A DNA stretch of 44,745 nt, taken from contig JAKFUT010000098.1 of assembly GCA_021732565.1 (NCBI GenBank), forward strand, positions 1-44,745, written 5' to 3'. How positions within the stretch are numbered: the stretch's first letter is position 1; each line of letters begins with the position of its first letter. The notes beneath the pieces are model-generated. The model saw nothing but the letters and a program-made list of their open reading frames with translations. It did not search any database and was not told the DNA's origin. A program made the position numbers and the translations under genes. Shown in pieces: positions 7,377 to 28,224 of this stretch. This stretch comes from Candidatus Obscuribacterales bacterium (GTDB lineage Bacteria > Cyanobacteriota > Vampirovibrionia > Obscuribacterales > Obscuribacteraceae).

Positions 7377-7661
7377 AAAGTGAATCATAGTTAGGAGAAA
7401 CCCTTCTCATTCGAAATCCATCTCTGATTGGCGTCAGTGTGCTGCATTTTCCTCGCGCAGCAAGCTCTATCGATTCCAATCGGCAGCTTTGAGCTGGCTC
7501 GCTTCCACGAGTCCCGCCGAAGACGAAAGCCATGGAAGCGCAGTAGTATCATCATTAATCCTTCAACCCGAAAGCCTCACAAAAGTACCATAAATTTCTC
7601 AGCACTTCTCAGTAAGCTGATGCTATGCACAAATGCATAAGGTCTCAACAGGAGAAGAGCA
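7377..7661. other. Intergenic stretch before the 7662 gene
   Basis: No credible gene. A small inverted repeat TATGCA-CAAA-TGCATA at 7624-7639 lies just before the ribosome binding site of the next gene and could be an operator; this is only a guess. Confidence 0.4.
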
Positions 7662-7898
7662 ATGGACATAATGGACAACTGCGGTTTATGGGAAATCGTC
7701 GAAAATTCAGAGGAAGATGAAATGCAGGAAAACTTTTTCGATGAAATCGATGGAACAAAAGATGCCGTTCCCGCTGAAGAGTCTAAAGCAGCCAGGCTTA
7801 AGCGATTTTCGTCTATTGATCAGAAAACGGTTAAATTTCAGATAGGGGAAGTTTTACCTGATACCCCGATTGACCAACCAGCTGATTTCAAGCAGTGA
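7662..7898 (+). CDS. Small acidic hypothetical protein
   Basis: A 78-residue protein starting MDIMDNCGLWEIVENSEEDE, with AGGAGA about 7 nt before the ATG, a good start signal. It is acidic over the first ~45 residues and more basic afterwards. No domain is recognised. Its last 45 bp overlap, tail to tail, the 3' end of the Ser/Thr kinase gene on the other strand. The codon pattern and start signal make it likely to be real. Confidence 0.55.
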   Translation: MDIMDNCGLWEIVENSEEDEMQENFFDEIDGTKDAVPAEESKAARLKRFSSIDQKTVKFQIGEVLPDTPIDQPADFKQ

Positions 7899-9191: not shown

Positions 9192-9684
9192 TTATTCCCG
9201 GGTTTCCTGGAGGCGTAAACCCGATAGATGTGTAAAAACACTCGTGCAAGCCAGCATCCCGCGTATTAGCGGCAAAAACTTCCCTATTAGTGCCGGGAAC
9301 TAAACTGCAAAATGGGGCGAGCCTCGCCGCTCACCGTGTCCTTCTCGGGTGGGCTATACTAGTCAACAATGGCTTTGAATACTTCGCATTTCTAGCTACC
9401 AATGTTTGCGAGTCGCCATGTATTGGGATTGTGCAGAGAATACTTGAGTATTTTCGGTTGCTCGCTTACTCCCTTCACGTATCGATTTTCATAAACTGGA
9501 TTATCTGGCTCCTCGAATCGAATTGGATTGGGACGATCGTTTTATGATGGACTCAGCGATGACAGCGTCTGTAGTACTGTGACTTCTCCGAGTTGACTTC
9601 GAACTCGTCGTCGTTAGTTTTCTCAGATTTGCGCCAGATAGAAGCGGGTAAGTAGGAACTGTCTCAGTTTCAGGAACAATCTCC
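9192..9684. other. 493-bp divergent intergenic region
   Basis: It lies between the kinase start at 9191 and the gene at 9685. One 85-codon frame (9290-9547, plus) encodes a hydrophobic stretch but has no ribosome binding site. I see no gene I would defend and no clear promoter. Confidence 0.4.
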
Positions 9685-10689
9685 GTGAAGTGGCAGAATA
9701 AGCTTGGCGAGCAGATGCGTCGCGTGAGTCGCAACCTCTTATTTCAGGGGTTGGGATGGATTGCTTTTGGATTGCTAATCCTGATTTCGAATTCACGCTA
9801 CATTCAAAACGCATTTTGCGGGCCGTTAAAGATGAACACGAACCAACTCCTGGCGGTGTCAAATCCTGACTCCCTCAATCGCTACTACGTGAATATTGAT
9901 TGTAGTAACGTTTCCATGGCAAATAATCTGGCATCCCCGGCTATGTATGGAAACCTCTATGGGCTAACCATTGCAGATCATGTATTGTTTGCCGAAATTC
10001 GTGCGGATATTCCGTCGCAGCAGGTACTGTCGGCGAGGCATTTTGAAGGCGAATTGAGAAACCAAAAACCGCCAGTACAAACAGTGACGATGCCTGATGG
10101 AAAGAAGTTACCCGTTCTTCCTTTCACGTTGAGAGTAGCCGACTTCAGTTTTGGTGCCTGGCTTGTTTTGCTCTTTGGAATACCAGCGATTCTTGCCGGG
10201 CTTTCACTCTCGGTGAAAGCAAAGAAACGAATGGACAATCTTGATACCCATCCTACGGCAAAGCAGCTTGCAACCCTTGCAGAGGATCCCGCAGAGTTAG
10301 GAAGATCGATAAGTGCGGAAATGGACGACACCGCCGCGGCAGTATCAATCGGGCCGGCTGTAATAACAAGGAACTGGCTTGTCATTACATGGATGCTCGA
10401 TGTTCGTGTGATCAGGCTGGCAGACATAGCATGGATCTATGAACACAGAACCACTTACATTTCAGTTATGCCACCAGCATTTTTCAGGACCCACTGTATT
10501 GCTATCCGAACTTCCGACAAAAAAGGGCATGAGATACCGCTGTCGTCCAACAGAGCAGAAGCCATATTGTCTCAACTGACTCAACGGGCACCATGGGCAG
10601 TAGCCGGCTTCTCTGAACAGAGCAAGTCTCGCTGGACGCGCGAAACTGATGCCTTCATTGCCGAGGTACAGTCACGCAAGAGTAGCTAG
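9685..10689 (+). CDS. Uncharacterised membrane protein with two transmembrane helices
   Basis: A 334-residue protein starting at a GTG with AGGA about 9 nt upstream. Transmembrane helices lie at ~19-36 and ~156-176, so the ~120 residues between them should be outside and the last ~155 inside. The C-terminal part (~218-310: AVSIGPAVITRNWLVITW, then RVIRLADIAWIYEHR) has the strand pattern of PH-like membrane-associated domains. There are no enzyme motifs. It converges on bioA with only 15 bp between the stops. The family is not recognised with certainty. Confidence 0.75.
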   Translation: MKWQNKLGEQMRRVSRNLLFQGLGWIAFGLLILISNSRYIQNAFCGPLKMNTNQLLAVSNPDSLNRYYVNIDCSNVSMANNLASPAMYGNLYGLTIADHVLFAEIRADIPSQQVLSARHFEGELRNQKPPVQTVTMPDGKKLPVLPFTLRVADFSFGAWLVLLFGIPAILAGLSLSVKAKKRMDNLDTHPTAKQLATLAEDPAELGRSISAEMDDTAAAVSIGPAVITRNWLVITWMLDVRVIRLADIAWIYEHRTTYISVMPPAFFRTHCIAIRTSDKKGHEIPLSSNRAEAILSQLTQRAPWAVAGFSEQSKSRWTRETDAFIAEVQSRKSS

Positions 10690-10704
10690 CGGGTCTGTAA
10701 GAAT

Positions 10705-12438
10705 TCAGTCAACCTGCGATAACACTGTGGCGATACCCCGATAGGCCGCATCGAGTTCTTCATCTGTGACGCAATAGGGTGGCAGCAAATAAACAGTATT
10801 ACCGAGCGGTCGAATGAGCAGCCCTTGCGATAAGAAAGCCTCACGTAATCGCGGTCCTATCTCGTCGTAGTAACCGCCTTTAGCTGTTTGTATCTCTGCG
10901 GCAAAAATGGTTCCGCAATAACGGTGCCTCATAAGCGATCCCGTATTCGCAAGAAATTTCTCGCTCAACTGGCGGTGTTTCTGCTCCATGCTACAGAATG
11001 CGTTTCGATTCTCTTTTAGCAACCGCAGAGAAGTCCGAGCCGCAGCTAGAGCAAGAGGATTTGCCGTGTACGAATGGCCATGCACCAGCATCTTTCCCCA
11101 ATCATCCGAGAGAAACGCCCGGTACAACCGCGAACTACATACAGTGGCAGAAAGAGGCAAGAAGCCACCCGTGATGCCCTTTGAGAGACACAGAATGTCT
11201 GGTCGCACTCGGCTCTTAGTGGAAGCAAACCAGTCCCCTGTTCGACCAAACCCCGTCATAACTTCGTCGAAGATAAGGAGCACGTCAAATTCGCGTGCTA
11301 GCGCTCGCACCGATGCTAAAAAATTCGGACGACACATTCTCATTCCAGCCGCGCCTTGAACCAAGGGCTCAATCACCACGGCCGCAAGGCATTCCCCGTC
11401 GTTCTCAAGTATAGAGCGCAGAGCAGACAGCGCCTGTGCTTCCGTTTCTTCTACATTGGCATCGTGCTCGAAGGTAGACGGGAACGGCACTATACGAACC
11501 GGGAAAAGCAGAGGCTTGAAGTTCCCCCAAAAGGGCGAACCGCCTCCCACGGACATGGCTCCGATGGTATCCCCATGGTAGCCGCCCTCAAAGCAAACGA
11601 AGCCCGTCTTTTTTTCATGACCGATGTTTTGCCAATACTGGAAAGCCATCTTCAGCGCAACCTCCACCGCGGTAGAGCCATTGTCTGAGTAAAAGACATG
11701 CGCCAGGTCATCGAGATCGCAGTCGGGGCCAGTGAGCGCAGTAGCGTTCTCGGCAACAGGTCCGGTTTCGGGAACCGCAAAACCATCTCCCGGACCAGAA
11801 GCTGCTCCCGCCGTAGCGTGAAACCGCTCCATCACAAATTCAATGCCCGAAGCACCTTGAGAAATTTGCGTGGTATCGCAAGCATGGCGCCCGAAAGGTC
11901 GTGGGGGTTCCACGCCCTCGTTAGGCACTAAATTCTCGCCCTTGCTGTAGAAGGATAGCTCGCTTCTCCGCTGTTCAGCAACTCCACGTGATACCAGATC
12001 CGATACTGCATAATCCGAGGCGCCCCCGGTCGACGCCCGACTAGACATCCAATTCCCCGAGAGCTCACAGTCACGCACCAGATTCGATACTGCGTGCCGG
12101 GAATCTGTTAGCTCATTGGTCACCGCGCGGGTCAAGCTGGCAGACGGAGCATTAATGAGCTCCAGCAGTTCCCTTGCAAATTCTTCGGCGGGTTCATGGG
12201 TGAATCCGGCGAATATCACTTGTTCAAGATTAAGCGCCTGTTGATAAATTGCTTCAGCAATTTCCGGATGAGCATGACCGTGAAGGTTCACCCACCAGCT
12301 GGAAATCATATCCAGAACCTTACGACCATCTTCCAGCTCAAGGCTCACACCGTGGCCGCGCTTCACCATGAGCGGTGGCGGAGCCGTCTTTGCCTGAGTA
12401 AAAGGATGCCAGACTCTGTGATGATCACGATTGGACAT
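10705..12438 (-). CDS. bioA: BioA: DAPA aminotransferase with a ~140-residue insertion
   Basis: Adenosylmethionine-8-amino-7-oxononanoate aminotransferase, a PLP enzyme converting KAPA to DAPA in biotin synthesis. Family signatures: WHPFTQ near the start, ISSWWVNLHGHAHP (45-58), VFYSDNGSTAVEVALKMAF (248-266), FDEVMTGFGRTG, and the PLP lysine in LSKGITGG. The protein is 577 residues where the family is about 430. The excess lies between LLELINAP (91-98) and the DLDDLAHVFYSDNGS block (from 241), roughly nucleotides 11719-12144. The insert is polar with low-complexity patches and two similar sub-repeats (AVSNLVRDCELS, AVSDLVSRGVAE). It falls between conserved blocks and keeps the frame. Last gene of the bio operon, 171 bp after bioD. 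Activity with the insert is plausible but unproven. Confidence 0.93.
   Translation of the reverse strand: MSNRDHHRVWHPFTQAKTAPPPLMVKRGHGVSLELEDGRKVLDMISSWWVNLHGHAHPEIAEAIYQQALNLEQVIFAGFTHEPAEEFARELLELINAPSASLTRAVTNELTDSRHAVSNLVRDCELSGNWMSSRASTGGASDYAVSDLVSRGVAEQRRSELSFYSKGENLVPNEGVEPPRPFGRHACDTTQISQGASGIEFVMERFHATAGAASGPGDGFAVPETGPVAENATALTGPDCDLDDLAHVFYSDNGSTAVEVALKMAFQYWQNIGHEKKTGFVCFEGGYHGDTIGAMSVGGGSPFWGNFKPLLFPVRIVPFPSTFEHDANVEETEAQALSALRSILENDGECLAAVVIEPLVQGAAGMRMCRPNFLASVRALAREFDVLLIFDEVMTGFGRTGDWFASTKSRVRPDILCLSKGITGGFLPLSATVCSSRLYRAFLSDDWGKMLVHGHSYTANPLALAAARTSLRLLKENRNAFCSMEQKHRQLSEKFLANTGSLMRHRYCGTIFAAEIQTAKGGYYDEIGPRLREAFLSQGLLIRPLGNTVYLLPPYCVTDEELDAAYRGIATVLSQVD
11719..12144 (-). 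repeat. In-frame inserted element within bioA
   Basis: The boundaries are estimated by comparing the translation with the usual BioA block order. Internal near-repeats lie at 11993-12016 and 12078-12101 (ACCAGATCCGATACTGC against ACCAGATTCGATACTGC on plus). One part encodes GVEPPRPFG, a string often seen when repeat or RNA-like DNA is translated. The properties resemble selfish palindromic elements that insert in frame in Rickettsia genes; that comparison is inference. Confidence 0.55.
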
Positions 12439-12609
12439 TTTTGCTCCTTGGCAAACTCGTTAGCAGTCTTGCAGACGCGCTCAACGAAGCTCATTTTTTA
12501 CAATCACCCCATGTGCGACGCTCAGTTCGCCCGTAACTGTCAGGGCGGACAACCAGAGCGAGTGCTGCAGCAACTGCATGGATATCCCAAAACCATGTAG
12601 CTCCAAAAG

Positions 12610-13338
12610 CTATCTGGCGCCAGGAATTCTGATTGCCGCCGCGCTGATCTCAGAAAAGGGGTTACCGTCTTCAAGATTCGGTGATGGCAAAGCAAACGAA
12701 TCGTCTATGTATACTCGGCTAAAATGATCCGTGAACGCTTTTTCCAGGGTCGCGCGATTCAATCCGTTGAGCGGCGGAACTTCTGCCAGAACCGGCACTT
12801 TGGCATATTGCTCGATGGCAAATTTGTTCTCCGGATTCGCGATGCCATTCATTACGACACCGAGTACCGGAATCTTCCGAGCGCGCAAGGCCTCCACCGA
12901 AAGCATCGTATGGTTAATGGTACCAAGAGTGCTTCGCGCCACCAATAGTACAGGCAATCCGAGTTTGCTTATCATGTCGATCATGAAATGTCGTTCGTTG
13001 ATTGGCACCAACAGTCCACCGGCGCCTTCAACAATCAGCCGCTCTACCCCCATAGGCAATTCAATTTCATCGAGTTCAATTCTCTTGCCCTCAAGCCTGG
13101 CCGAAAGATGCGGCGACAACGGACGCCCTAGCCGAAAGGCCTCCGGCAATACGCGCCAATCAGGCAATTCACATGTCTTGCGCACAAATTCGCTGTCTGA
13201 CCATGGGTCGAGACCAGACTGCACCGGCTTCCAGTAGGTGGCACCCGTGCCCAATGCAATGATTGCCGATACCACCGTCTTACCAACCAGAGTGTCGGTT
13301 CCACTGATAAAAAACCGACCGGGTAATGCGTATTTCAT
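12610..13338 (-). CDS. bioD: BioD: dethiobiotin synthetase
   Basis: ATP-dependent carboxylation of DAPA to dethiobiotin. The P-loop is GTDTLVGKT near the N-terminus, followed by YWKPVQSGL and the VEGAGGLLVPI motif typical of the family. I chose the ATG at 13338, which overlaps the bioC stop as ATGA; an in-frame ATG at 13350 is an alternative. The length of 242 residues is close to the family norm of about 225-240. It lies in the bioF-bioH/G-bioC-bioD-bioA run, so it is co-transcribed by inference. Confidence 0.94.
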   Translation of the reverse strand: MKYALPGRFFISGTDTLVGKTVVSAIIALGTGATYWKPVQSGLDPWSDSEFVRKTCELPDWRVLPEAFRLGRPLSPHLSARLEGKRIELDEIELPMGVERLIVEGAGGLLVPINERHFMIDMISKLGLPVLLVARSTLGTINHTMLSVEALRARKIPVLGVVMNGIANPENKFAIEQYAKVPVLAEVPPLNGLNRATLEKAFTDHFSRVYIDDSFALPSPNLEDGNPFSEISAAAIRIPGAR

Positions 13339-14231
13339 TTGGTCATGCACCCATAGAGAATGTGATACGAGATTTCGATCGCGTTAGCCATAGATCCGAT
13401 TTCGGAGCCGTCGCCAATCGCGGGGACCACTGCACATGTCACGTCCGGCCTTCCTGCACGTAACAAACGTCTGAGCTCACTCACCGTTAGTCCATTTTCT
13501 GTACGGCGAGTACTGGTTCCCGACTCCTTCAATGCCTTGAGCATTGAATGAACATCAGGATAGTGATGATCCACTAGATATTCGCGCAAGGTAACGGTCA
13601 GTGAGGCATCATTCGCCCAGCTGGTCAGCTCGGCACCGGAAGGCAACGGGTTGCCGGTAAACGGCACGCAGCTCTCCTGGCATAGCGCCTTCCACTGGGC
13701 GAAGGTTTCTTCGCCGGGCACTGCGAAGAAAATGCACCCGCCATCAGCGAGCGCCTCTCTCATATTTGCAATTCCGGTGGCCGGCCGGCCAAACCACTGG
13801 AGAGCGAAGTTCGAAAATATCGCAGCGTACGGCGTATCGGCCTGTAAGTCTTCGCCATCGAGCACGGCGAAAGTAACACGCGCAGGGTCAAAGCCAGGGC
13901 ACCTGGATAGTCGCGCTTTGCACAGCTCAAGCATGTCTTGAGAGATATCGGAAATCACTATCTCTCGCCCGGGGAAATGCGACAGAAGGTGCGCGCTTAG
14001 GAACCCCGTGCCACAACCAATTTCGAGAATCGGACCTTTTGCCGGCACCAGAGCAGCAAGTTCGCCTGACTGTGATTCCGCGATAAACTCCGACAGAAGC
14101 AATGCTGCCAGCGACTGCACCTGCGCATGAGCCTCATAGGCTGCGGCTCTGGTGGAGAACGATTTCACAACCCGTTTCTTGAACTCTTCTATTGATATTG
14201 TATTTATAGTATTCATAGCTATTTCACTCAT
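13335..14231 (-). CDS. bioC: BioC: malonyl-ACP O-methyltransferase
   Basis: SAM-dependent methyltransferase that starts pimelate assembly by methylating malonyl-ACP. The SAM-binding motif I is ILEIGCGTGFLS (about residues 68-79); the N-terminus has the KKRVVKSFSTRAAAYEAHA helix usual for BioC, and FSNFALQWFGRP matches the post-II region. It has 298 residues, slightly longer than the ~250-residue norm because of an extended loop before motif I. Its ATG overlaps the upstream esterase stop by 4 bp. The position in the bio operon supports the call. Confidence 0.92.
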   Translation of the reverse strand: MSEIAMNTINTISIEEFKKRVVKSFSTRAAAYEAHAQVQSLAALLLSEFIAESQSGELAALVPAKGPILEIGCGTGFLSAHLLSHFPGREIVISDISQDMLELCKARLSRCPGFDPARVTFAVLDGEDLQADTPYAAIFSNFALQWFGRPATGIANMREALADGGCIFFAVPGEETFAQWKALCQESCVPFTGNPLPSGAELTSWANDASLTVTLREYLVDHHYPDVHSMLKALKESGTSTRRTENGLTVSELRRLLRAGRPDVTCAVVPAIGDGSEIGSMANAIEISYHILYGCMTK

Positions 14232-14956
14232 AAGCTACCGACCGGTAAAATTGATCTGAGGGCATTTCTTATCGAAAGCCAACAAGGAGCTACGTGGGTA
14301 AAGGGCAAAGCGTGGCCTGCCCCCTCGAACATGATGAGAAAACTGCGAGGCAACAATTTTTGTAGCGCCACTGCATGGCCGGACGGCACAACCTTGTCGC
14401 TTTCACCATGGAGAATTAGTATCTGTCTTGCCGTATAGGGGGCGTCCACCTCAAGGCGACAATAATCGATACGTTCCAAATCCGACCGCAGGGCGTGGAG
14501 ATTCAGTTTGTCCACATCAGAGGATGAACGCCTCAACAAGACCTGCCGTGTAAGTAAGGGGTGATAACAATTGCTAAAGAAATCATCAAGAACATCCAGG
14601 GGGCTCAAATCAAGCTTTTCCAGCATTAAGTGCAGCGTGCGACGAGAGCGACGCCTGGCCAGATTATCGTCGCCATGAAAAGTAACAAAGGAACTTATGA
14701 TTACCAATAAATCAGCACGACAGAGAATCTCCGGAGACAAAAAATGTAGCCCGGTTGAATGAGCAATTACAGCTTTGCGTCCGGACTGATTGGAAAACTC
14801 CGGCTGAAATTTTTCATTCCCGAAATAGCCTCGCTCCGCTCGATGAGTGACCAACTCATACTCAGGATTTTGCAAAAGGTGAGATCTCCACCCGTCCCAT
14901 GCACCGGCGTCAAATCCCCAACCATGCTGTAGAATTAGCTCAATTTTTTCTTTCAT
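14228..14956 (-). CDS. Alpha/beta hydrolase, BioH/BioG-type pimeloyl-ACP methyl ester esterase
   Basis: A 242-residue alpha/beta hydrolase. The oxyanion region is LILQHGWGFDAGAW near the N-terminus. The nucleophile elbow is IAHSTGLH (A-H-S-x-G rather than the usual G-H-S-x-G), the acid is likely the Asp in LHGESDKVVP, and the His is in GAGHALPF. Set between bioF and bioC, it fits the step that releases pimeloyl-ACP from its methyl ester, filled in different bacteria by BioH, BioG, BioK or BioV. I cannot tell which subfamily it belongs to, so no symbol is given. It overlaps bioF by 17 bp and bioC by 4 bp. Confidence 0.82.
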   Translation of the reverse strand: MKEKIELILQHGWGFDAGAWDGWRSHLLQNPEYELVTHRAERGYFGNEKFQPEFSNQSGRKAVIAHSTGLHFLSPEILCRADLLVIISSFVTFHGDDNLARRRSRRTLHLMLEKLDLSPLDVLDDFFSNCYHPLLTRQVLLRRSSSDVDKLNLHALRSDLERIDYCRLEVDAPYTARQILILHGESDKVVPSGHAVALQKLLPRSFLIMFEGAGHALPFTHVAPCWLSIRNALRSILPVGSL

Positions 14957-16106
14957 GCCAGCCCTTCAATGATTTAATCAAATGATCTAACTGAGCCTCC
15001 GTGTGCTCACCGGTTAAAGAAATACGGACCCTGGCCGAATTTTTCGCAACGGTTGGCGTGCGAATGGCCGGGGCATAAATACCGCTTAACTCCAAATGGG
15101 CTGACAGCGACAATGCCGCAGAATCGGCGCCGACAATAATGGGAATTATGTGCGTACTTGAGTTGCCGGTATCAAACCCGGCAAGCTGCAAGCGGGCTCG
15201 AACACTAGCGGCCTTATCGCCAAGCAGTTGGCGTTCTTTAGACATGGCGGGCACAAGATCCAGTGCCGCGTCAATGGAACCGAGCACCGCCGGTGGTAGC
15301 GCCGTCGAATAAATAAACCCGGCAGCAAAGTTGATCAAATAATCTCTGACCTCGTAAGAGCAAGCAATGTAAGCTCCAAAGGAGCCAAGCCCTTTTCCAA
15401 AAGTTCCCATTGAAATAGCATTAGGCTCGCCCGGCGAGACCCCCATTCCGTGCTCGCCTAAAACACCAGTGGCATGCGCTTCATCAAAGAAAAGACTCGC
15501 CTTGAATTCCGCAGCCACCTGTCTCAGCTGCTCCACCGGCGCTCTATCGCCATCCATTCCAAACACAGACTCAGTAACAATCCACAAACTATCGTACGAT
15601 TCGTTGCATCGAACGGTTAGCTTTTCGCGTAAGTCGGCTACATCGTTGTGCTTGTAGCGAAACCATCTCGCCTTGCCGGCCGACGCGCCGTGGAGCAAGC
15701 TATTGTGGCAGAGTCGATCACAGGCCAGCAGCGCATTGTTGCCCGATAGTGCCGGCAACACCGTACTATTGGTCTGATAGCCGGTGGGAAATATTAGCGC
15801 AGCCTCGGTTCCTTTTAGCTGTGCCAGCTTTCGTTCAATTCCATCGTAAGCATCTAAATTACCGCTCATCAGCCGCGATCCAGTGGACCCGGCGCCATAT
15901 CGTTCAATAAATTCGATAGCACGTTGCTTGAGCAGAGGATGCCTCGACAAGCCCAGATAATCGTTTGACGCAAAATTAATTAGATCTTTCCCGTCAAGTG
16001 AAACCTCGCCAGGGTTGGCTGGAGAAGCACCGCGAAGCTGACGAAAACGGTGATCGCGCTTTCTGTCATCGAGCTCTCGGGTAAATCGGGTGGCGATCTC
16101 CAGCAT
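14940..16106 (-). CDS. bioF: BioF: 8-amino-7-oxononanoate synthase
   Basis: PLP-dependent condensation of pimeloyl-ACP (or -CoA) with alanine to give KAPA. Signatures: INFASNDYLGLSRHP (~43-57), GAGSTGSRLMSGN (~71-83), the cofactor His/Asp segment FFDEAHATGVLGEHG, and the Schiff-base lysine in GTFGKGLGSFG. The length of 388 residues is normal. GAGGG lies shortly before the ATG. It is the first gene of the minus-strand biotin run. The 179 bp upstream contain a 9-bp hairpin at 16138-16164 but no recognisable BirA operator. Confidence 0.96.
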   Translation of the reverse strand: MLEIATRFTRELDDRKRDHRFRQLRGASPANPGEVSLDGKDLINFASNDYLGLSRHPLLKQRAIEFIERYGAGSTGSRLMSGNLDAYDGIERKLAQLKGTEAALIFPTGYQTNSTVLPALSGNNALLACDRLCHNSLLHGASAGKARWFRYKHNDVADLREKLTVRCNESYDSLWIVTESVFGMDGDRAPVEQLRQVAAEFKASLFFDEAHATGVLGEHGMGVSPGEPNAISMGTFGKGLGSFGAYIACSYEVRDYLINFAAGFIYSTALPPAVLGSIDAALDLVPAMSKERQLLGDKAASVRARLQLAGFDTGNSSTHIIPIIVGADSAALSLSAHLELSGIYAPAIRTPTVAKNSARVRISLTGEHTEAQLDHLIKSLKGWHERKN

Positions 16107-16137
16107 TCGACCCTCAGTGGTGGCATCATTAATGTCA

Positions 16138-16164
16138 CCTTTGCTCCAACAGTTCGAGCAAAGG
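16138..16164 (-). promoter_or_regulatory. Hairpin in the bioF leader
   Basis: CCTTTGCTC (16138-16146) pairs with GAGCAAAGG (16156-16164), about 30 bp before the bioF ATG on the minus strand. It could affect translation or be a weak terminator of the lipoprotein transcript; there is no T-run. Confidence 0.35.
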
Positions 16165-16285
16165 TTCCGCTTTAGAAGCTGTAATCGTATTCTCTTGACG
16201 TCCTCAAACCATTGAGCTGAACTAATTTGTTTAACGAAAGCAGCAGCGCGCCGATCTCACAAGCCGCAAAACGGTAGGCAGATTG

Positions 16286-16927
16286 TCATTCATCGAGATT
16301 TTTTCCGAGCGTATAGCCCTCGGGCGCCTCAAAGTGACTATCTGGCGAGGGGCCGGAAGTGTACTCCAGCAACTCCCTCTTAGTGCCTTTGGTCGGAGCA
16401 CTGGCGGGATACACATGCTGGCGCACCATGCATCCGGTGTCCTCACCGAACCACAAATCGGTGACCAGCACCGACGATTCGTATTTTTGAATCTGCCGCC
16501 ATAGCTGGCAAGGATGGGTGCCAATTTTCTCAGCCTTCTGGAATGCGAAGAATGGCATTTTGGGAGCGTCGATCTCGAAATCGGGATTCTTCGTATCGAA
16601 CCAGCGATGGTCGTACTTCGGTTCATTGGGGTGAACCAGGAAAATCTCAGCTTTGGGCGTATTGTAAATGAACAAACTGGTCATCTTATATACACCATCT
16701 CGTTCAACGCCAATTTCGGTGCGACGGCGTCGTTCTGTTCCTCGTTCGACTGTCATTTTTTCGACTTTCGCTTCCTTCTGTCCGTCGTCAGTGGTCACTT
16801 CATAGACCGCCGTGCCGACTTTAGGTTCAAGTTTCTTCGGAGTCGGTGCGCAACCACAAACAATTAATGACACCGCCAAGACTGCCAGACCTTGGATTTT
16901 TGTAGAACTGAAAATCGAAATACGCAT
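16286..16927 (-). CDS. Lipoprotein of unknown function, LolA/DUF4412-like fold guess
   Basis: A 213-residue lipoprotein. A hydrophobic signal segment ends in LIVCGC, a lipobox with the acylated Cys at about residue 26. The mature part is beta-rich: KMTSLFIYNTPKAEIFLVHP, then GTHPCQLWR and VTDLWFGEDTGCMVRQ. The pattern of alternating strands followed by VTDLWF resembles LolA-like or DUF4412 proteins; this is a weak resemblance. Its ribosome binding site (GGGGA) lies over the stop region of the upstream GntR gene and the start follows after 4 bp, so the two are one transcript and the regulator may respond to envelope state. Confidence 0.8.
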   Translation of the reverse strand: MRISIFSSTKIQGLAVLAVSLIVCGCAPTPKKLEPKVGTAVYEVTTDDGQKEAKVEKMTVERGTERRRRTEIGVERDGVYKMTSLFIYNTPKAEIFLVHPNEPKYDHRWFDTKNPDFEIDAPKMPFFAFQKAEKIGTHPCQLWRQIQKYESSVLVTDLWFGEDTGCMVRQHVYPASAPTKGTKRELLEYTSGPSPDSHFEAPEGYTLGKNLDE

Positions 16928-18493: not shown

Positions 18494-18499
18494 TATAAT
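18494..18499 (+). promoter_or_regulatory. Candidate -10 box of the kinase-TPR/HK3 operon
   Basis: A perfect TATAAT overlaps the ATG at 18498. If it is a -10 element, that ATG cannot be the start and the ATG at 18531 is. No good -35 is visible at 16-18 bp. Confidence 0.4.
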
Positions 18500-18530
18500 G
18501 AAGCATTATCCGCAGCTCCCGGAATACGGC

Positions 18531-21398
18531 ATGTCTGTGACGCCTCTCACAGTTGGAAGTAATTTTCAAAATCGGTACCGCATCATTGCTTCGATCGGCA
18601 GCGGTGGCATGGCGGAGGTATTTCATGGCTTCGACGAAGCGCTAAAGCGCGACGTCGCAATCAAGGTTCTCCACCAAAATCTCCTCTCTGAGGACGACCT
18701 GGCTCGTTTTGTTCGCGAGTGCAAGATTTTTGCCTTGTTAACTCATCCAAACTTTGTGCGCATATACAACTATGGTATAAGCGCGCACCAGGCACCGTTT
18801 ATCGTTATGGAATATGTTGAAGGGTGCAGTCTACGTCGATGGTTATCAGAGCATGAAAAAATGGATTGCGCCGAGACTCTTAAAATGGGCTTTGCACTTT
18901 GTGATGCCCTTTCTTATGCTCACGACAAGGGCGTTGTTCATCGTGATTTAAATCCCAATAACATACTGCTGGAAGGCGGAGATCCTCTCAAACCGAAGAT
19001 TATCGACTTCGGTTTGTCGATATTGAAACACCCGGACAGAGCGTCTACCTATGTTACCCGGGCTGGCACCTTGATGGGCACGCCTAATTATCTCAGCCCT
19101 GAACAATGTGCCGGAGAGCCGGCGGACCAGCGCACCGATGTTTATGCATTGGGCTGCACTTTGTACGAGTGTATATCAGGTCAAAAAGCATTCGATGCAG
19201 AGTCGGTAGTGGCGGTAATCTACAAGCATCTCAATGAATCCCCTTGCCTTCTCTCCACACACACGCCTGTACTCGAAGGCGTTGACCAGCTGCTGCAACA
19301 TGCACTGGCAAAGGAACTCGCCCGGCGATATCACACCATGACAGAAGTGGCAGAAGACATCCAGTTGATTCTACGCGGTCAGGGAGACGAAGTTACACTC
19401 GATGAACTGAGCACCAAAGAAGACACTACCGTCGACAGATCCGGCTCTCGCCTCAAGCGCGCCATCATTTTCTGTTTACTGCTGCCGTCGTTGTGGTTAT
19501 GTATCAGCGATCCCGGCATTGCATCTCTGCCACTGCGTGCGGCAGTGTACCTCCCGCCGACAATACGCGCGGAATTTCTTAGCAACGCAGCCGATCTTTA
19601 TGAGTATCTGGCAAAACCAAGAGCCAGGGAAGAAGCTTATCAGGTTTTCTTTTCGTCGACGGAGACGCTGGATAAGGCTCCGCTGGCGGTGGGGCTCAAG
19701 AGCTTGAGAAACTACGCAAAAATACTACGATTCAGCGATCAAGGCGGGCTCACGGAATCGTCTTCTCACTCAGCGTTTTTGTCACGTTACTTGCACTATC
19801 TTGCAGTGACCCTGACAAGTTATCAAAACGAGTACGTAACTGCAAAACCACGTCCAGCAGAATTAGCTCCAGCTGAACTGGGTGAACACCTGGGGACCAT
19901 CGCAAACCTAACCGGTCTTATGGGGCAGTTTCCGTTCGCCGAGTCTGACCTGACTCGAATGCAACAGACGACTGCAAATCAGGAAGACATGTTGCAACCG
20001 TGTGCAATTCTTGCAACCCTCATACGAGAGGGCAATCTGCTTCACGGGAATAGACGCATGGCCGCATCTGATCTGTGTTTGCTCGGTGATGTTTGTACGA
20101 AGTTAAAGAAGCCGACACTCTCTTTCGGGTTCGACAACCACGCTCTTTTGCGCTGTTCACTTAACGACTCAGACTTGAGACCAACGCTATTGCGAAGGTT
20201 ATGGACTACTGAAAGCGAACTGGCAATAGGCAATCAAATGGCGATTCACCTTCTCTCGATTGGCAAGGATATAGCCGCTTCAAAACTCTTTCACGGTGCC
20301 GAGCAGAAGAACTTTCTGATTACCTACGGAGAACTCCTTTGTTTTGTCGGCGACTATGAGCAGGCTGCGCTGATTCTTAGTTCGGTGCTGAAAGAGCCGG
20401 ATTTATACGAATATGCAGATGCTGATTATTTGTGGTTGCTGCGGGCCGAAATACTCGCGGGCAATTCCGGGCCCGCAAGTCATCAATTAACAAAGTTCGT
20501 AGAACCCTGGAAAAGGGCTGCTCCAATCTCGAAAACAGCGCTACTTTCCAACGCCCTGATTGAAGAAGTGAGTATGAGTCCGCAAACAGCCGAGCGCAGA
20601 ATTAGACAACTAAATCTGGTGTTAACTGATAATCTGAAGTTGGAACTCAAACCGCTAAAGACAGGCTTGCAATTGAACCTACTGCAAAATAACGTAACAG
20701 TAGACTGCGAGACGATCAAAAATAGCCGTGCCTGCGCTGCTGCACTGGCAATGCCGGTAAAGCAGATCCAAAACATTGAAATGGCTGCATCATCAAAACT
20801 GGCCGACCTCTTCCTCGTTGCTGAGACCGCGCCCCCAAACACCGCAAAACAACTTCTGCTGGAAGAGGAAATCTTATTGACTTTGATCGAAATGAAACAT
20901 GGAGACGTAGCATCGGGGCAAAGGAAGATAATGAAATGGATTGGACAGGCAAAGGCCTGTTATACTCCACAGCTTTTCAATTTCCATGCCACCTTGCTTG
21001 CTCGATCTCTGATCGCTTGCCGATTTTACAATCAATGCGAAGCTTTTTGCCAACGCCTTCTACATGAACGAGAAGGTCCCCGAGAAGAATTGAGACTCCG
21101 CCTGGCACTGTGCAAATTTCAATCAGGCAAATATGCAGAAGCCCGCTCTTTATGCAATCTGATTGATGAATCAATGCTACCTTTAGATGAATGCACCAGG
21201 CTAGACAATTATTTCTTGCTAACCAGGCTAACGACGCCCGGTACTCGTAAGGCAAAACGTTATGCCCAGATCGCTGCGGCACTGTATGCCTTGCGATTCG
21301 GCCAGGATGCTTCTAGCGCGAATTACCTGTTGCAATTGAAGAATTCGGAAACATCATCGCCTCAGCGCAAATTTCAAAATCGGGGTAACCATATTTGA
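18531..21398 (+). CDS. Receptor Ser/Thr kinase with large TPR-like outer domain
   Basis: Numbered from the ATG at 18531 (955 residues). An in-frame ATG at 18498 exists but is overlapped by a TATAAT box. Kinase domain: Gly loop IGSGGMAEV (22-30), Lys45 in AIKVL, HRD at 137-139 followed by LNPNN, and DFG at 159-161. The usual Lys two residues after the catalytic Asp (HRDLK) is Asn. A transmembrane helix lies at ~310-326. About 620 outer residues follow, built of helical pairs with TPR-like spacing (for example LITYGELLCFVGDYEQAALIL, KFQSGKYAEARSLCNL), each quoted only in part. The stop overlaps the TTG of the histidine kinase gene as TTGA, so the two are translationally coupled. Probably an envelope sensor joining Ser/Thr and His phosphorylation; this is inference. 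Confidence 0.92.
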   Translation: MSVTPLTVGSNFQNRYRIIASIGSGGMAEVFHGFDEALKRDVAIKVLHQNLLSEDDLARFVRECKIFALLTHPNFVRIYNYGISAHQAPFIVMEYVEGCSLRRWLSEHEKMDCAETLKMGFALCDALSYAHDKGVVHRDLNPNNILLEGGDPLKPKIIDFGLSILKHPDRASTYVTRAGTLMGTPNYLSPEQCAGEPADQRTDVYALGCTLYECISGQKAFDAESVVAVIYKHLNESPCLLSTHTPVLEGVDQLLQHALAKELARRYHTMTEVAEDIQLILRGQGDEVTLDELSTKEDTTVDRSGSRLKRAIIFCLLLPSLWLCISDPGIASLPLRAAVYLPPTIRAEFLSNAADLYEYLAKPRAREEAYQVFFSSTETLDKAPLAVGLKSLRNYAKILRFSDQGGLTESSSHSAFLSRYLHYLAVTLTSYQNEYVTAKPRPAELAPAELGEHLGTIANLTGLMGQFPFAESDLTRMQQTTANQEDMLQPCAILATLIREGNLLHGNRRMAASDLCLLGDVCTKLKKPTLSFGFDNHALLRCSLNDSDLRPTLLRRLWTTESELAIGNQMAIHLLSIGKDIAASKLFHGAEQKNFLITYGELLCFVGDYEQAALILSSVLKEPDLYEYADADYLWLLRAEILAGNSGPASHQLTKFVEPWKRAAPISKTALLSNALIEEVSMSPQTAERRIRQLNLVLTDNLKLELKPLKTGLQLNLLQNNVTVDCETIKNSRACAAALAMPVKQIQNIEMAASSKLADLFLVAETAPPNTAKQLLLEEEILLTLIEMKHGDVASGQRKIMKWIGQAKACYTPQLFNFHATLLARSLIACRFYNQCEAFCQRLLHEREGPREELRLRLALCKFQSGKYAEARSLCNLIDESMLPLDECTRLDNYFLLTRLTTPGTRKAKRYAQIAAALYALRFGQDASSANYLLQLKNSETSSPQRKFQNRGNHI

Positions 21399-23629
21399 AG
21401 GGCAACGTCCCATTCTCTGTGCTTATTCTCGTGCCTCTGCTGACCGGGCTCATTGCAGCGTGGCAGCTATGGAACTTAGAATCCAACTGGTGGACAAAGG
21501 TAAAAGCGACAGAAATCCTCACCGATATGGCAACAGAAAGTAAGCAAGGAGAAATCTGCTTAGATGCATATCTTACGACTGTCTATCCCCGCTTTCTTTT
21601 AGCTTATCTTGAGAATGCCAAGGCGCTACGGCAGAAGATGAATGACCTTCGGCATTCACCAACATCGAGTGTCAGGGAAGGAACGTTGTTGTGGCTTATG
21701 GAGAATGCTCAGCTTATCGACGCCGAGATGGTCAAAGACTCAAAACGTGGTGAATTATCTTCCGACCGCATACAAGACTGGCAAATAACGAGGACACATT
21801 ATCAAACAGCGTACGATGGGCAAGTTGAGACATATAAGTCTGAGATCAAACTAGAGCTAAATCCAGATCGGGCAAGGAGTCTGGTTTTAGTTCTGGTTAC
21901 CAGTTTGTTCTGTTCAAGTGCGTTAGCGTTAGTTCTTCGGAACAACCGCCACAAACCGCTCAGAGATCTCTTGAACGAGTGCTCGCTATTCTTGGGCGCC
22001 CATGATTTGAGAGTACCAAGAATAGCGCATGCTGGCCCGGAAGCGAATTTGAGAGCGAGTTTCAAGGTTTTGAGCGACGCGCTGCAAAGTGTACTCAAAC
22101 ATGAAAAAGCGATGGTTGACAATGCGGTGGACATGGTGTGCTGGTTAGACCCATTCGGAAAATTCAAGAAGGTGAGTCCGTCTTGTCAGAAACTGACGGG
22201 ATACACAGACGAGGAACTGAGAGACAATCGGTTAGCCGATTATCTGGCACACGACGATGCCACGACATCGACCGACGCATTGCACATGGCCAGTCAGAGT
22301 TCGGACTTGCGTGTATTCGAAAACTGGTTCCGGACAAAAAGCGGGAACACAATTTGTTTGCGATGGTCGGCCCACTGGTCGCTTTCAGAAAATGCGCTGT
22401 TCTGCATTGCTCATGATGTCACAGAGAACAAGCTGGCGGAGAAGTTGCTCAAAGAAAAGGAAGCAGAGCTGCGACTTTTATTTGAATCGTTACCTGCTGG
22501 GGTCGTGGTAGTAGATGAACAGATGAACATTGAACTCACCAATAGTTCAATCGGCGAAATGTTGCACCATGGAGATGGCGAACTGATTGGAAAGAACCTT
22601 AGTCTCATTTTGCCTGACTTAAATTTTCACCGCTCTGAGAAAGACGAAAATCGCTCATCAGCACGAAGCAATTCCCTTGCATCAACCGACCTTCAATCGA
22701 CTTCCACAACCGCCGTTCCGCCAGACATCCAGAAGTGCGACGCGCTTCCGCATGAACCGCATCGCGAGCCAACGGCCGGGGACAAGACTGGTACAGCTGA
22801 GGCGGATCAAGTTGTATCATTGATAGATGAGGTTGCTTGCACATCGACCAGCGAGCGTATTCCCGTACAGGTTGCTATTTCTAAATTCGCAACCCGGCCC
22901 AAGTGGTTGCTAGTTGTTTCCGACATGCGTTCCAGAGTTGCTATTGAAACTATGAAACGCGAATTTGTGGCCATGGTCGGGCACGATTTGCGCACACCAC
23001 TCACGTCAATTAAGACCTTTTTCGATTTGCTCCTGGTTGATGGTTTCCACCCGGAAACCTCGCAGATAGTACGCATGGTTGCTGATTTGGAACGCTTGAT
23101 GAGACTAATAAACGATCTGCTCGATGTTGAGAAAATGGGTGCCGGTAAGTTCGAAGTTGCCCCAGTCGAGTTGCAAATTACCAATCTCATTGAAGCCGCG
23201 TGCAATGCTGTCGAACACATCGCAAGCGTTCGCAAAATCTCGATAAACAAAGAGACAAGCGATATCCGGTGTCTGGCAGATGGTGCACGAACAATTCAGG
23301 TACTGGTAAATCTGTTGTCCAACGCCCTCAAGTTCTCACCAAAGGGATCCCTCATCATTGTTGGAATTAAAGATCTCAATGCCACGCACGTAGCAGTGTA
23401 CGTAAAAGATCAGGGAAGAGGGGTTCCGGTCACCGAAGTAGAGCGAATATTCGAGAAGTTCAGCCAGGTATTCAGTGATGATGACATAGAGAACGGGGGC
23501 AGCGGGCTGGGGTTGCATATTTGCAAAACGATTGTGGTGCAGCAGGGCGGCGAAATTTGGGTGGAACCCAACCCTGAGGGCGGAAGCACTTTCTATTTTT
23601 CCTTGCGCAAGGCTGAGACAACGCAATAG
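21395..23629 (+). CDS. PAS-domain sensor histidine kinase HK3
   Basis: A 744-residue kinase beginning at a TTG that overlaps the upstream stop. Transmembrane helices at ~7-24 and ~161-180 enclose a ~135-residue helical domain like those of HK1 and HK2. A first PAS domain (~238-345) contains VDNAVDMVCWLDPFGKFKKV. A second PAS (~355-410) is interrupted by a ~75-residue Ser/Thr/Pro-rich insert before its last strands (WLLVVSD). The phospho-acceptor is His530 in MVGHDLRTPLTS; N box VLVNLLSNALKF, G1 DQGRGVPV and G2 GSGLGLHICK are present. No response regulator gene is adjacent. The partner is the kinase-TPR receptor encoded just upstream. Confidence 0.95.
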   Translation: MKGNVPFSVLILVPLLTGLIAAWQLWNLESNWWTKVKATEILTDMATESKQGEICLDAYLTTVYPRFLLAYLENAKALRQKMNDLRHSPTSSVREGTLLWLMENAQLIDAEMVKDSKRGELSSDRIQDWQITRTHYQTAYDGQVETYKSEIKLELNPDRARSLVLVLVTSLFCSSALALVLRNNRHKPLRDLLNECSLFLGAHDLRVPRIAHAGPEANLRASFKVLSDALQSVLKHEKAMVDNAVDMVCWLDPFGKFKKVSPSCQKLTGYTDEELRDNRLADYLAHDDATTSTDALHMASQSSDLRVFENWFRTKSGNTICLRWSAHWSLSENALFCIAHDVTENKLAEKLLKEKEAELRLLFESLPAGVVVVDEQMNIELTNSSIGEMLHHGDGELIGKNLSLILPDLNFHRSEKDENRSSARSNSLASTDLQSTSTTAVPPDIQKCDALPHEPHREPTAGDKTGTAEADQVVSLIDEVACTSTSERIPVQVAISKFATRPKWLLVVSDMRSRVAIETMKREFVAMVGHDLRTPLTSIKTFFDLLLVDGFHPETSQIVRMVADLERLMRLINDLLDVEKMGAGKFEVAPVELQITNLIEAACNAVEHIASVRKISINKETSDIRCLADGARTIQVLVNLLSNALKFSPKGSLIIVGIKDLNATHVAVYVKDQGRGVPVTEVERIFEKFSQVFSDDDIENGGSGLGLHICKTIVVQQGGEIWVEPNPEGGSTFYFSLRKAETTQ

Positions 23630-23815: not shown

Positions 23816-25159
23816 CTATTGGCCGGGTTCTCTCATCGGCGTGAAGCCGGGCAGTAACCCATTGGTCGAAACCAGAAGCTGCTTGATGTAATCACGATCA
23901 CCGTTACCGGCACTCAATAATCGAAAGATTGTAAGCAACTGGGGCGTTGTAACCACGCACAATTTCTTCTTCGCAGCACTTTCGGAGAAGTCGCGGCTCA
24001 GCGGCGCTCGCTGTTCCGGCGGCGCCTTGGAGTTCTGCTGCAAGACAATAATTCCTTTGGGCTCGTAGGTGAACTGGCACCACACCACCGCTTGCTGGTT
24101 AACCACCGCCTCCATGTCTGAGGTGGGTGGCTCCTTTACGCAACCGACAATTCGCAGTACGGCCTCAATCTTGTTTCCAAGTCGCAGGCTCATTTCCAGA
24201 TGGTTGGCTGCGGCCCACTCCACCGTCCATCCCAGGGCGGTGATCACTTCCTTCACACGGGTGGCAAGGGCGTCTCCCTCGTCACACAACAAGTCGCTAC
24301 TGAGAGATCCAGCACCTGCGATGCGGGCATCTAACTCCTGAAGGTCTCTGCGCCCCTTTTCTATTAAGGCAACCAGTCTTTCCCGCTCTTCCATGAGCTT
24401 ACCGAACTCAGGAGGCGCATAAAGTTTGCTCCAGTCGGGATAATTTTTCTTGGAAATCGGCTCAGTAACAGAAGCTAGCACTGCCGGACCGCCTACTGGA
24501 AGCACGCTATCTCTCATGCGTTCCAGGGATTGACTAAACTCATTTTTGGCAGGTTGCGGAACCGGCACCGGCACGGGAGCTGGACCACCGGGAGGTGGTG
24601 GCAGAGGGTGAGTCTTGCCGATGGGGGAACCAGGAGGTTCTGTTTTGGGGGACGCTGGCGGTTCACTTTGATTCATTATTGAATCGAGCGCTGAGTCTCG
24701 ACCACCATAGTTGCCACTTGCTTTCAACGAAAAGGTGTAACGCGACATACCAGCGCTTACAACATCACCGTTGGCAAGCTTTCGGGGCGTACTTATCGGA
24801 CTCCCGTTCAGAAAGGTGCCATTACGACTACCACAATCTTCTATAAAGAATTCGTCTCCCCAAACTCGAATTTGGAAATGGTAACGAGAGAGACTTCGAT
24901 CTCCAGCGATAACAATGTCGCTTGTAATATCCCTTCCCACTTTGCAAACAGGGCTGACTACTGGAAGTGGCTTTCCCGTGACAGTGTCGATTAAGGCGAC
25001 GGGAATGTCTTCTTCCTGGTCTATTTTGGGATTAAGCGTCAGTCCTTCTTCGGCCAGCAACGCCTCCAGATCGAGCCCGGTGACCGTGCAATACGGACAC
25101 GTGGTGGAGGTAAAGTCCTTTCCGCACCGCTTGCATTTGCTGTGGAGAGAGCTGGTCAT
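23816..25159 (-). CDS. Zinc-ribbon/FHA-domain protein
   Basis: A 447-residue protein. Four cysteines (9, 12, 21, 24) form an N-terminal zinc ribbon. An FHA domain spans ~70-147 with the phosphothreonine-binding signatures KVGRD, SLSRYHFQ and GSRNGTFLNG. A Pro-rich linker (~160-205) follows, then a short coiled coil (~262-290: MEERERLVALIEKGRRDL) and a C-terminal alpha/beta region (~305-430) I do not recognise. The FHA domain predicts binding to a protein phosphorylated on Thr, most simply one of the three Ser/Thr kinases in this window or a target. It converges on HK3 with ~185 bp between stops. No membrane segment, so it is likely cytoplasmic. Confidence 0.9.
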   Translation of the reverse strand: MTSSLHSKCKRCGKDFTSTTCPYCTVTGLDLEALLAEEGLTLNPKIDQEEDIPVALIDTVTGKPLPVVSPVCKVGRDITSDIVIAGDRSLSRYHFQIRVWGDEFFIEDCGSRNGTFLNGSPISTPRKLANGDVVSAGMSRYTFSLKASGNYGGRDSALDSIMNQSEPPASPKTEPPGSPIGKTHPLPPPPGGPAPVPVPVPQPAKNEFSQSLERMRDSVLPVGGPAVLASVTEPISKKNYPDWSKLYAPPEFGKLMEERERLVALIEKGRRDLQELDARIAGAGSLSSDLLCDEGDALATRVKEVITALGWTVEWAAANHLEMSLRLGNKIEAVLRIVGCVKEPPTSDMEAVVNQQAVVWCQFTYEPKGIIVLQQNSKAPPEQRAPLSRDFSESAAKKKLCVVTTPQLLTIFRLLSAGNGDRDYIKQLLVSTNGLLPGFTPMREPGQ

Positions 25160-26019: not shown

Positions 26020-28224
26020 GTGCTCAATCCCGGTACACTGTTTGACGAACGTTATCTGATCGACACATTTATAGGTGTCGGGGGGCAAGCTCAAGTTTAC
26101 AAAGCCACAGATCAACACCTGCGGCGTGAGGTAGCACTAAAACTCATGAGACCGGAAGATGCTATCACCCGGGAAGAATTACAGCGATTCCGACGAGAAG
26201 CAAAAATCATTTCCCGACTAGATCACCGGTTCATACTGCGTTGCTACCACATGGGTTTTGCAAACGGCACTATGTATGCTTGCCTTGAGTATGTGCAAGC
26301 CCCGGATCTGGCACAAACCATTGCATCGGCCTCGCTGGACTGGTCACGGGCGCTGGAGATCTGCGCACAAGTATGCCAGGCACTGCAATACGCACACAAT
26401 CAAGGCGTTCTGCATCGAGATCTTACCCCCCGCAACATCCTTGTATTCAAGGACACGGTAAAGATCATCGACTTTGGTCTTGCTGCATCAAGAACACTTG
26501 TGGAAGAACAAAAGCTTACCCTTACCGGGGAAATATTGGGAACTCCCTTTTTCATCAGCCCGGAGCAATGGCTCGGCAAGACAGCTGATGAGCGATCCGA
26601 TATCTACTCTCTGGGTTGCGTTTTATACCAATGTCTTACCGGCGAGCTACCGTTCTATGCCTCCAATAGTGTCACACTGGCGGTTTCTCACACGAGCGCC
26701 ACACCACCACCATTGAATTTAACCGGTGTGCCGGACGAAACAGTGAGATCACTCGATGCGATAATACGCAAAGCGTTGGCGAAAGACAGAAATAATCGCT
26801 ACCAAACGACGGGAGAACTGCTTGCTGATTTGCAAGCGGTTCAGCAGGGTCGAAAACCATTGGCTGCTGTAGCAATGGTGACGAGAACCACTCCAAAAAT
26901 TATCTTTGCCTCTTTCACAGTAGCAGCGCTTCTGCTGGCACTGGCTTTAGTATCATCCCACATGCCGCGCCAACCACAGGAGTCTGACACCGGCGAGAGC
27001 ATGCGCATCACCGGCGATGCTATAGCCGATGCGTTGACATACAGCAAATCGTCCCTGAGAGCGCGCAATCATGGAAATATCAAAGACTGCACTGAGCTAG
27101 CCTCAAAATCGCTGGAACTTCTGTCCACCGCATTAGGAAAAGATTCCTCATCAAATGAATTGGATCAAGCAAGCCGCATTCTAACTATCTTGCAGCAATG
27201 CCGGCTGCGCTCAGGCCATTGTATTGAACAAATACTTCCTCTGGCACGCATAGATCGACTTACCAAGCCGGCTCTGGATCTAACCATGCAGATTGTTGGC
27301 AATGAACGTGAACCAGTTGAGAACCTTGGTGCTCAGTTCGTTTCTATCGCAGACGCATTCGCGAACAATAAGGAAACCACGGCCCGTCTGTATGACACTT
27401 ACAAACGAGCGGTTATCAACATCACCCCGACTGATAGTCGTTATGGAGGGGTTACAGCGACAAGAGCGGATTTGGCGCGAATTAGCGGTGCTCAATCCGA
27501 AGCTAAAGAGACATACTCTCTGCTCAATCCCTCAAGCAAGTATGCCGCGCTTTACCCGCAATATATTCAAGTTGCGCAATACCGGTTAGGACAAGCAGCG
27601 TTGTCGGCAAATAAATTTGCCGACGCCGCCATGCACTTCAAAATGGCGGACAATCCAATTTTGGTAAGAGATCAACAGATTACACATACCGCTCTTATTC
27701 GAGTATATCTGGCACAGAGCCTAGCCTTAAGCGGTCGGATTGAAGAGGCAGATTCGATACTGCAACGAATCCTGTCAGGTTCAACTGCCACAATACAAGA
27801 GCGCAAATTAGCCACACTTGAGCTTGCGGCGAACGGAAACATCGGACCAGAGTTGCTCCGTCGAGAATTTCAAAACGACCACGAAGCTCTCTTCATTAAC
27901 GTGCACAATAACATTCAAGAAGAATTCCGTGCCAGCCGATACCGTCGCACCGTCTCTCTTGCAAAAGTCATTGCCTCCTTGCCGGCGAATTCAAAAATTA
28001 CTGAAGAAATGCAGATTCACGAACGAATCTATCAGGGACAAGCGTTGATGCAGCTCCATGACGTGACAGCGGGTACTCGAGTGGCAAGGGAGCTGATACA
28101 TGATCTGATGACAGGCTACAAGCATGTGTCGAGCGATTTTCGCCAGGAAAGGCTTCGGGTTACATGGGGACTGATCGGAGGGATGCCGCGATCGCCAACT
28201 CAAGAGAACTCGGTCACGCAATAA
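26020..28224 (+). CDS. Receptor Ser/Thr kinase with TPR-like outer domain
   Basis: A 734-residue kinase starting at a GTG. Kinase domain ~residues 10-275: Gly loop IGVGGQAQVY (18-27), Lys41 in VALKLM, HRD at 132-134 followed by LTPRN, DFG at 151-153, and SPEQW at 180-184. The Lys normally found two residues after the catalytic Asp is Thr. A transmembrane helix is at ~293-313, and ~420 residues of helical repeats lie beyond it, with TPR-like units (AQYRLGQAALSANKFADAAM, YLAQSLALSGRIEEADSIL). It is paralogous to the protein at 18531-21398 but has no histidine kinase partner next to it. No Shine-Dalgarno is visible, and the short frame ending at 26018 may supply coupling. Confidence 0.92.
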   Translation: MLNPGTLFDERYLIDTFIGVGGQAQVYKATDQHLRREVALKLMRPEDAITREELQRFRREAKIISRLDHRFILRCYHMGFANGTMYACLEYVQAPDLAQTIASASLDWSRALEICAQVCQALQYAHNQGVLHRDLTPRNILVFKDTVKIIDFGLAASRTLVEEQKLTLTGEILGTPFFISPEQWLGKTADERSDIYSLGCVLYQCLTGELPFYASNSVTLAVSHTSATPPPLNLTGVPDETVRSLDAIIRKALAKDRNNRYQTTGELLADLQAVQQGRKPLAAVAMVTRTTPKIIFASFTVAALLLALALVSSHMPRQPQESDTGESMRITGDAIADALTYSKSSLRARNHGNIKDCTELASKSLELLSTALGKDSSSNELDQASRILTILQQCRLRSGHCIEQILPLARIDRLTKPALDLTMQIVGNEREPVENLGAQFVSIADAFANNKETTARLYDTYKRAVINITPTDSRYGGVTATRADLARISGAQSEAKETYSLLNPSSKYAALYPQYIQVAQYRLGQAALSANKFADAAMHFKMADNPILVRDQQITHTALIRVYLAQSLALSGRIEEADSILQRILSGSTATIQERKLATLELAANGNIGPELLRREFQNDHEALFINVHNNIQEEFRASRYRRTVSLAKVIASLPANSKITEEMQIHERIYQGQALMQLHDVTAGTRVARELIHDLMTGYKHVSSDFRQERLRVTWGLIGGMPRSPTQENSVTQ

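Follow-up and report, generated by a model that had tools for sequence, protein, structure and literature searches.

Bacterial cross-talk between Ser/Thr kinases and two-component systems is known mostly from kinases whose targets are response regulators (RRs). The stretch of DNA analysed here (the window, 44,745 nucleotides) is contig C20 of a metagenome-assembled genome of 8.58 Mb in 428 contigs, which is 67% complete. In this window the gene of a Ser/Thr kinase (STK) receptor runs directly into the gene of a histidine kinase (HK). The locus raises the question whether the two proteins belong together, and if so, at which part of the HK the STK acts.

The STK and HK genes overlap by four nucleotides

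The STK open reading frame (18498-21398, plus strand) encodes 966 aa from its first ATG and 955 aa from the ATG at 18531. The TTGA overlap between the stop of this kinase-TPR receptor and the start of the 744-aa HK was found as the original prediction had described it, and the domains of both proteins were also as claimed (Table 1). The TTG start of the HK is credible, because a stop lies 3 codons upstream in the HK frame, no ATG or GTG occurs before codon 9, and the HK of the paralogous locus on contig C13 begins with TTG in a similar context. The overlap had also been taken to mean equal expression of STK and HK, which an overlap alone cannot tell. Promoter and terminator scans yielded fewer sites than in shuffled sequence and were uninformative. 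Both proteins are probably made from one message.

Table 1. Coordinates of the STK-HK pair and its parts in the window
Feature	Position	Strand	Basis
Hanks-type Ser/Thr kinase receptor (STK), 955 aa	18531..21398	+	ORF, Pkinase match, invariant active-site residues
Protein kinase domain, residues 27-278 of the 966-aa form, loop HRDLNPNN	18576..19331	+	Pfam Pkinase
Single predicted TM segment, residues ~308-331 of the 955-aa form	19452..19523	+	Kyte-Doolittle scan
Receptor half, all-helical TPR-type solenoid, predicted extracytoplasmic	19524..21395	+	Profile, AF2, Foldseek, Pfam
TTGA overlap, 4 nt (HK TTG start and STK TGA stop)	21395..21398	+	ORF ends
Membrane histidine kinase (HK), 744 aa, TTG start	21395..23629	+	ORF and Pfam matches
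HK sensor half, two TM segments (residues ~2-28 and ~160-183) flanking a helical, predicted extracytoplasmic domain, plus linker	21395..22099	+	TM scan, AF2
PAS1, residues ~236-350	22100..22444	+	Best conserved part among the four STK-linked HKs
Ser/Thr/Pro-rich insert in PAS2, residues ~412-470	22628..22804	+	Window copy only; gap in both intact paralogs
Transmitter: HisKA, H-box GHDLRTPLT (H530), HATPase_c	22952..23611	+	Pfam, alignment

The STK is a TPR receptor kinase with a variant catalytic loop

The kinase domain of the window STK matched Pfam Pkinase at 1.4e-43 (149.7 bits versus the Pfam cut-off of 31.7). The VAIK Lys, HRD Asp, catalytic Asn and DFG Asp are all present, and alignment of the four STK paralogs showed that K45, H137-R138-D139, N144 and D159-F-G are invariant. 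The catalytic-loop Lys of HRDLKPxN is replaced, the paralogs reading HRD[IL][NS]PNN, and another STK of the same genome carries HRDLSPRN. Given the motif of that other STK, the missing Lys is a variant rather than an exclusion from the Hanks kinases. Since this position is N or S throughout the subfamily, the kinase activity of the STK is not assured.

A TM segment follows the kinase domain in all four STK paralogs (Kyte-Doolittle scan). The profile of the receptor half behind it (A3) matched TPR chains such as kinesin light chain (2.2e-07), so the window STK carries TPR-type repeats after the TM segment, as a TPR receptor kinase does. Pfam gave a single TPR match in this half, TPR_19 at 5.7e-04, which is under the cut-off. 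The AF2 model was all-helical at a low-confidence pLDDT of 65, and Foldseek returned TPR solenoids with low TM; because the AF2 models were low in confidence (pTM 0.55 and 0.29), Foldseek was used for fold class only.

The best NCBIfam match over the kinase domain was NF033483 (PknB/PASTA), with 294 bits versus a cut-off of 450 over residues 9-301. The window STK resembles PknB/PASTA kinases in its predicted topology, with a kinase domain in the cytoplasm, a single TM segment and a sensor outside; unlike them, it has a TPR-type receptor half. Identity as a PASTA kinase was rejected, since PASTA repeats are absent and the match scores below cut-off and covers the kinase domain only.

In the window HK, Pfam detected two PAS domains (PAS 3.2e-16), HisKA (3.3e-14, 53.1 bits) and HATPase_c (4.5e-26, 91.9 bits). 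The H-box, N-box and G-boxes of an orthodox HisKA-type HK are all present. Its sensor was modelled by AF2 as helices over residues 4-153, and the blocks from residue 40 to 150 mostly reached 77-91 pLDDT.

The STK-then-HK order recurs at paralogous loci

Searching with the STK receptor half, we found matches at five places, all of them in this genome: the window, C13, the minus and plus strands of C214, and a short piece on C30. An HK lies directly behind the STK, in the same order and on the same strand, in the window (-4 nt), at C13 (48 nt) and on the C214 minus strand (3 nt). With these spacings, the TTGA overlap is not a kept feature of the family. At C30 the order is RR, a C-terminal remnant of the STK (its last ~55 residues; profile E 2e-6 in the whole genome, 31-37% identity) and an HK broken into several frames. 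This decaying copy occupies C30 2668-5070 (minus strand), and its upstream RR is intact.

On the C214 plus strand (7639-10146) stands the fourth full-length STK of the family, divergent from that contig's pair and not followed by an HK.

A tree of 74 STK kinase domains from this genome placed the four family STKs in one clade (support 1.0) with the window and C13 copies as sisters. In a tree of 126 transmitters, the HKs of the window, C13 and C30 likewise formed one clade (1.0), and window and C13 were sisters again. The copies are far apart, with 34-38% identity to the window copy for the STK paralogs and 25-27% for the HK sensor part, and the flanking genes differ between the window, C13 and C214. 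Contamination was rejected as a source of these loci; the GC and tetranucleotide composition of the four lies inside the spread of the genome.

The HK sensor half tells the same story from the other side. Its profile (residues 1-235) was run on 50 genomes of the same family and matched only C13, C20, C214 and C30 of this genome, always directly behind an STK or its relic. Within this sample the two parts are always found together, the one exception being the STK copy on the C214 plus strand. The prediction that the pair belongs together is thus borne out by the STK-then-HK order at three paralogous loci, the relic at a fourth, and an HK sensor half that always accompanies an STK or a relic. 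Because the pair has been duplicated and kept together at several loci, our results suggest that it probably works as one sensor.

Among relatives, the STK receptor half was found in 0 of 49 same-family genomes and in none of a 386-genome phylum sample, where only generic TPR matches appeared, and the HK sensor half was found in 0 of the 49. No orthologous pair was found, either with the HK at E≤1e-100 in 39 relatives or with the receptor profile in the 49 and 386 genomes. The closest HK elsewhere (relative G008, contig C22) is 37% identical and aligned from PAS1 onward only; the gene upstream overlaps it divergently and does not encode an STK. A scan of genome contigs with the HK alignment returned only distant HKs of other phyla, and a plasmid search gave no match. 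The family is known from this one partial genome.

Inheritance of the STK follows the HK input half

The C214 pair separates the parts of the HK. Its sensor and PAS1 belong to the family (PAS1 is 59% identical to the window copy). Its transmitter does not group with those of the family: when it was searched against the HK set of the genome, the window, C13 and C30 HKs ranked only 75, 78 and 50 among 138 matches. The simplest reading of these ranks would be that the C214 HK acquired another transmitter, with its sensor, its PAS1 and the STK remaining together; very rapid divergence confined to the transmitter appears less likely. Because the C214 transmitter is foreign and sensor, PAS1 and STK were kept, the STK is inherited with the HK input half rather than with a given transmitter or RR.

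PAS1 shares 59-68% identity with the window copy in the STK-linked HKs and at most 44% in other HKs; HKs outside the family reach no more than 47% to either the window or the C214 PAS1. Positions that are Ser or Thr in each of the four HKs fall mostly within PAS1 (S261, T268, T271, S300, S302, T314, S325, S329, S331 and T343), T314 being Ser in C30. Many of these positions may be structural, and no phosphosite stands out.

The Ser/Thr/Pro-rich insert in the second PAS had been proposed as an obvious target of the STK. The insert does exist (34% S/T/P versus 18% over the whole window HK) and is predicted to be disordered (pLDDT about 24-38). Both intact HK paralogs lack it, so that it is not the conserved target and cannot account for the conservation of the pair. 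The window HK may nonetheless be phosphorylated there. Of the original prediction, the co-inheritance of the two genes (three loci and a relic) stands, and the insert as the conserved target falls away.

Nearness of STK and HK genes is general in this genome

The genome has a very large signalling repertoire: its 8.58 Mb contain about 147 HisKA matches and, with 150 of 337 candidates scored, at least 150 Pkinase matches. In an unbiased sample of 1.05 Mb, 3.2% of the genes were STKs. Among the neighbours of 132 of the ~147 HKs, 23 of 248 were STKs versus 8.0 expected (P about 8e-6), an about threefold excess; the figures are approximate because genes were called by longest ORF, about 15 HKs lay outside the set, and 20 of the HK loci had been chosen partly for listed HK/STK closeness. 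The excess held on the opposite strand (10 of 103 neighbours), and convergent, divergent and tandem arrangements were alike. With the present family left out, an STK was directly upstream on the same strand in 4 of 72 cases versus about 2.3 expected (P about 0.2).

STK-HK nearness is therefore a general habit of this genome. A general operon habit was rejected, since the enrichment, though real, is independent of orientation and the non-family upstream tandems are not significant. Because adjacency is raised in all orientations, nearness alone is weak evidence, and the case for the pair rests on its repeated, exclusive co-inheritance and not on the overlap.

This background bears on the reading that the two genes are only co-expressed, in which an ancestral order survived duplication and STK and HK sense related conditions with no mutual action. 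The threefold excess in every orientation suggests general clustering of signalling genes, and tandems of HK then STK with unrelated receptors occur too. On the other hand, the pair is unbroken despite the strong divergence of both receptor parts and the differing flanks at three loci, and at C214 sensor, PAS1 and STK were retained with a foreign transmitter. We consider co-expression without mutual action rather unlikely.

Tight tandems of the reverse order, with gaps of -4 to 90 nt, lie on C28 (L123), C3 (L195), C190 (L073), C209 (L092) and C210 (L093). When the pairs on C28, C190, C209 and C210 were compared, their STK receptor parts were unlike one another. C2 (L147) carries a second RR ... 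STK-HK arrangement, in which an STK (12343-14787, minus strand) overlaps an HK (11019-12353, minus strand) by 11 nt; its receptor is unrelated to the family, an HK-like gene (9469-11058, minus strand) comes after the HK, and an RR is located at 15764-16429 (minus strand).

A linked response regulator is present at two loci only

An RR lies upstream of the STK at C13, like at C30, and the two RRs are 62% identical and mutual best matches in the genome. The C13 and C30 loci may plausibly descend from an RR-STK-HK unit. Neither the window pair nor the C214 pair has a linked RR next to it, and an RR relic was not found upstream of the window STK. The genome holds no closer free RR copy for the window HK, the next best being 54%. 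The linked cognate RR of an orthodox two-component system is thus absent at the window pair and present at C13 and C30 only.

If RR-STK-HK was the ancestral unit, the STK could modify the RR and not the HK. The position of the two reciprocally matching RRs directly upstream of the STK would fit this, and known STK substrates include the RRs CovR, WalR, VraR and DosR (review PMC6213207). Such cross-talk is like the present proposal in that Ser/Thr and two-component signalling converge, and unlike it in that the RR is the target. To our knowledge, the STKs acting on these four RRs are not receptors paired with an HK. Since the window and C214 pairs persist without an adjacent RR, and without a further close RR copy, we regard action on the RR as improbable.

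Relation to known systems and proposed mechanism

The closest known systems are fusions described in a cyanobacterial STK survey, of the order kinase-GAF-(PAS)-HisKA and named cbSTKIII or HstK (PMC2176072); as that survey cites Phalip et al. 2001, the HstK proteins of Anabaena and Nostoc are such STK-GAF-(PAS)-HisKA single chains. The window pair is like them in that a Hanks kinase and an HK share one unit of inheritance and expression, and PAS is listed for some HstK members there. Unlike them, it consists of two polypeptides, both with TM segments, the STK has a TPR receptor, and the STK chain has no HisKA. Membership in HstK/cbSTKIII was rejected on the two ORFs and the lack of a GAF match in the window pair.

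How an STK can act on the input part of an HK is exemplified by the Hanks kinase YbdM of B. subtilis, which phosphorylates Ser76 in the input domain of DegS and raises phosphotransfer (PMC3033389). Unlike the window HK, DegS is cytosolic, it is not described as co-inherited with its kinase gene, and no TPR receptor is involved. By analogy, the pair may resemble a split HstK-type fusion with YbdM-DegS logic, not a member of the fusion family. In a literature search of partial coverage, no description of neighbouring STK and HK genes with TPR turned up; as a sign of novelty this is weak.

We narrowly favour a two-polypeptide membrane receptor in which the STK acts on the input half of the HK. 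From hydropathy only, the STK would have its kinase domain in the cytoplasm, one TM segment and the TPR solenoid outside, and the HK would have its helical sensor outside between two TM segments, followed by PAS1, PAS2 and the transmitter. The STK would most likely act on the TM linker or PAS1 of the HK, through physical contact in a complex and/or Ser/Thr phosphorylation in the direction from STK to HK, and would so set the activity of whichever transmitter is attached. A stricter form, in which STK and HK sensor half are an obligate receptor complex and a Ser/Thr-kinase-gated input is joined to exchangeable transmitters (C13 and the window versus C214), seems rather unlikely to us.

Several paralogs, one of them with a foreign transmitter, represent a natural experiment that suggests the HK input half as the place where the two systems meet, and they supply matched and mismatched STK/HK pairs open to direct testing. 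If interaction fails, the case will be a useful caution against taking close, duplicated gene pairs as a sure sign of cross-talk.

Neighbouring genes in the window

FHA domains bind phosphothreonine. The gene convergent to the HK (23816-25159, minus strand), between two STK genes, encodes a cysteine-rich zinc-ribbon-like start and an FHA domain (7.9e-18), and is a possible phosphothreonine reader. The STK output could be another protein such as this one, the HK only sharing the promoter. Against this, a second STK (26020-28224), flanking the FHA gene on its far side, is an equal candidate, and at C13 and C214, where neighbours were tagged for kinase, HK and RR motifs only, no conserved FHA neighbour was noted. 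We regard this output as very improbable.

The TPR part of the STK had been thought to take the place of stand-alone TPR proteins in other modules of the window, which holds loosely: the product of 39184-40485 is a TPR protein, divergent from its HK, and that of 241-1446 has no Pfam match. The latter gene (plus strand, 401 aa) shares a second 4-nt overlap, GTGA, with the HK gene at 1443-2939 (plus strand).
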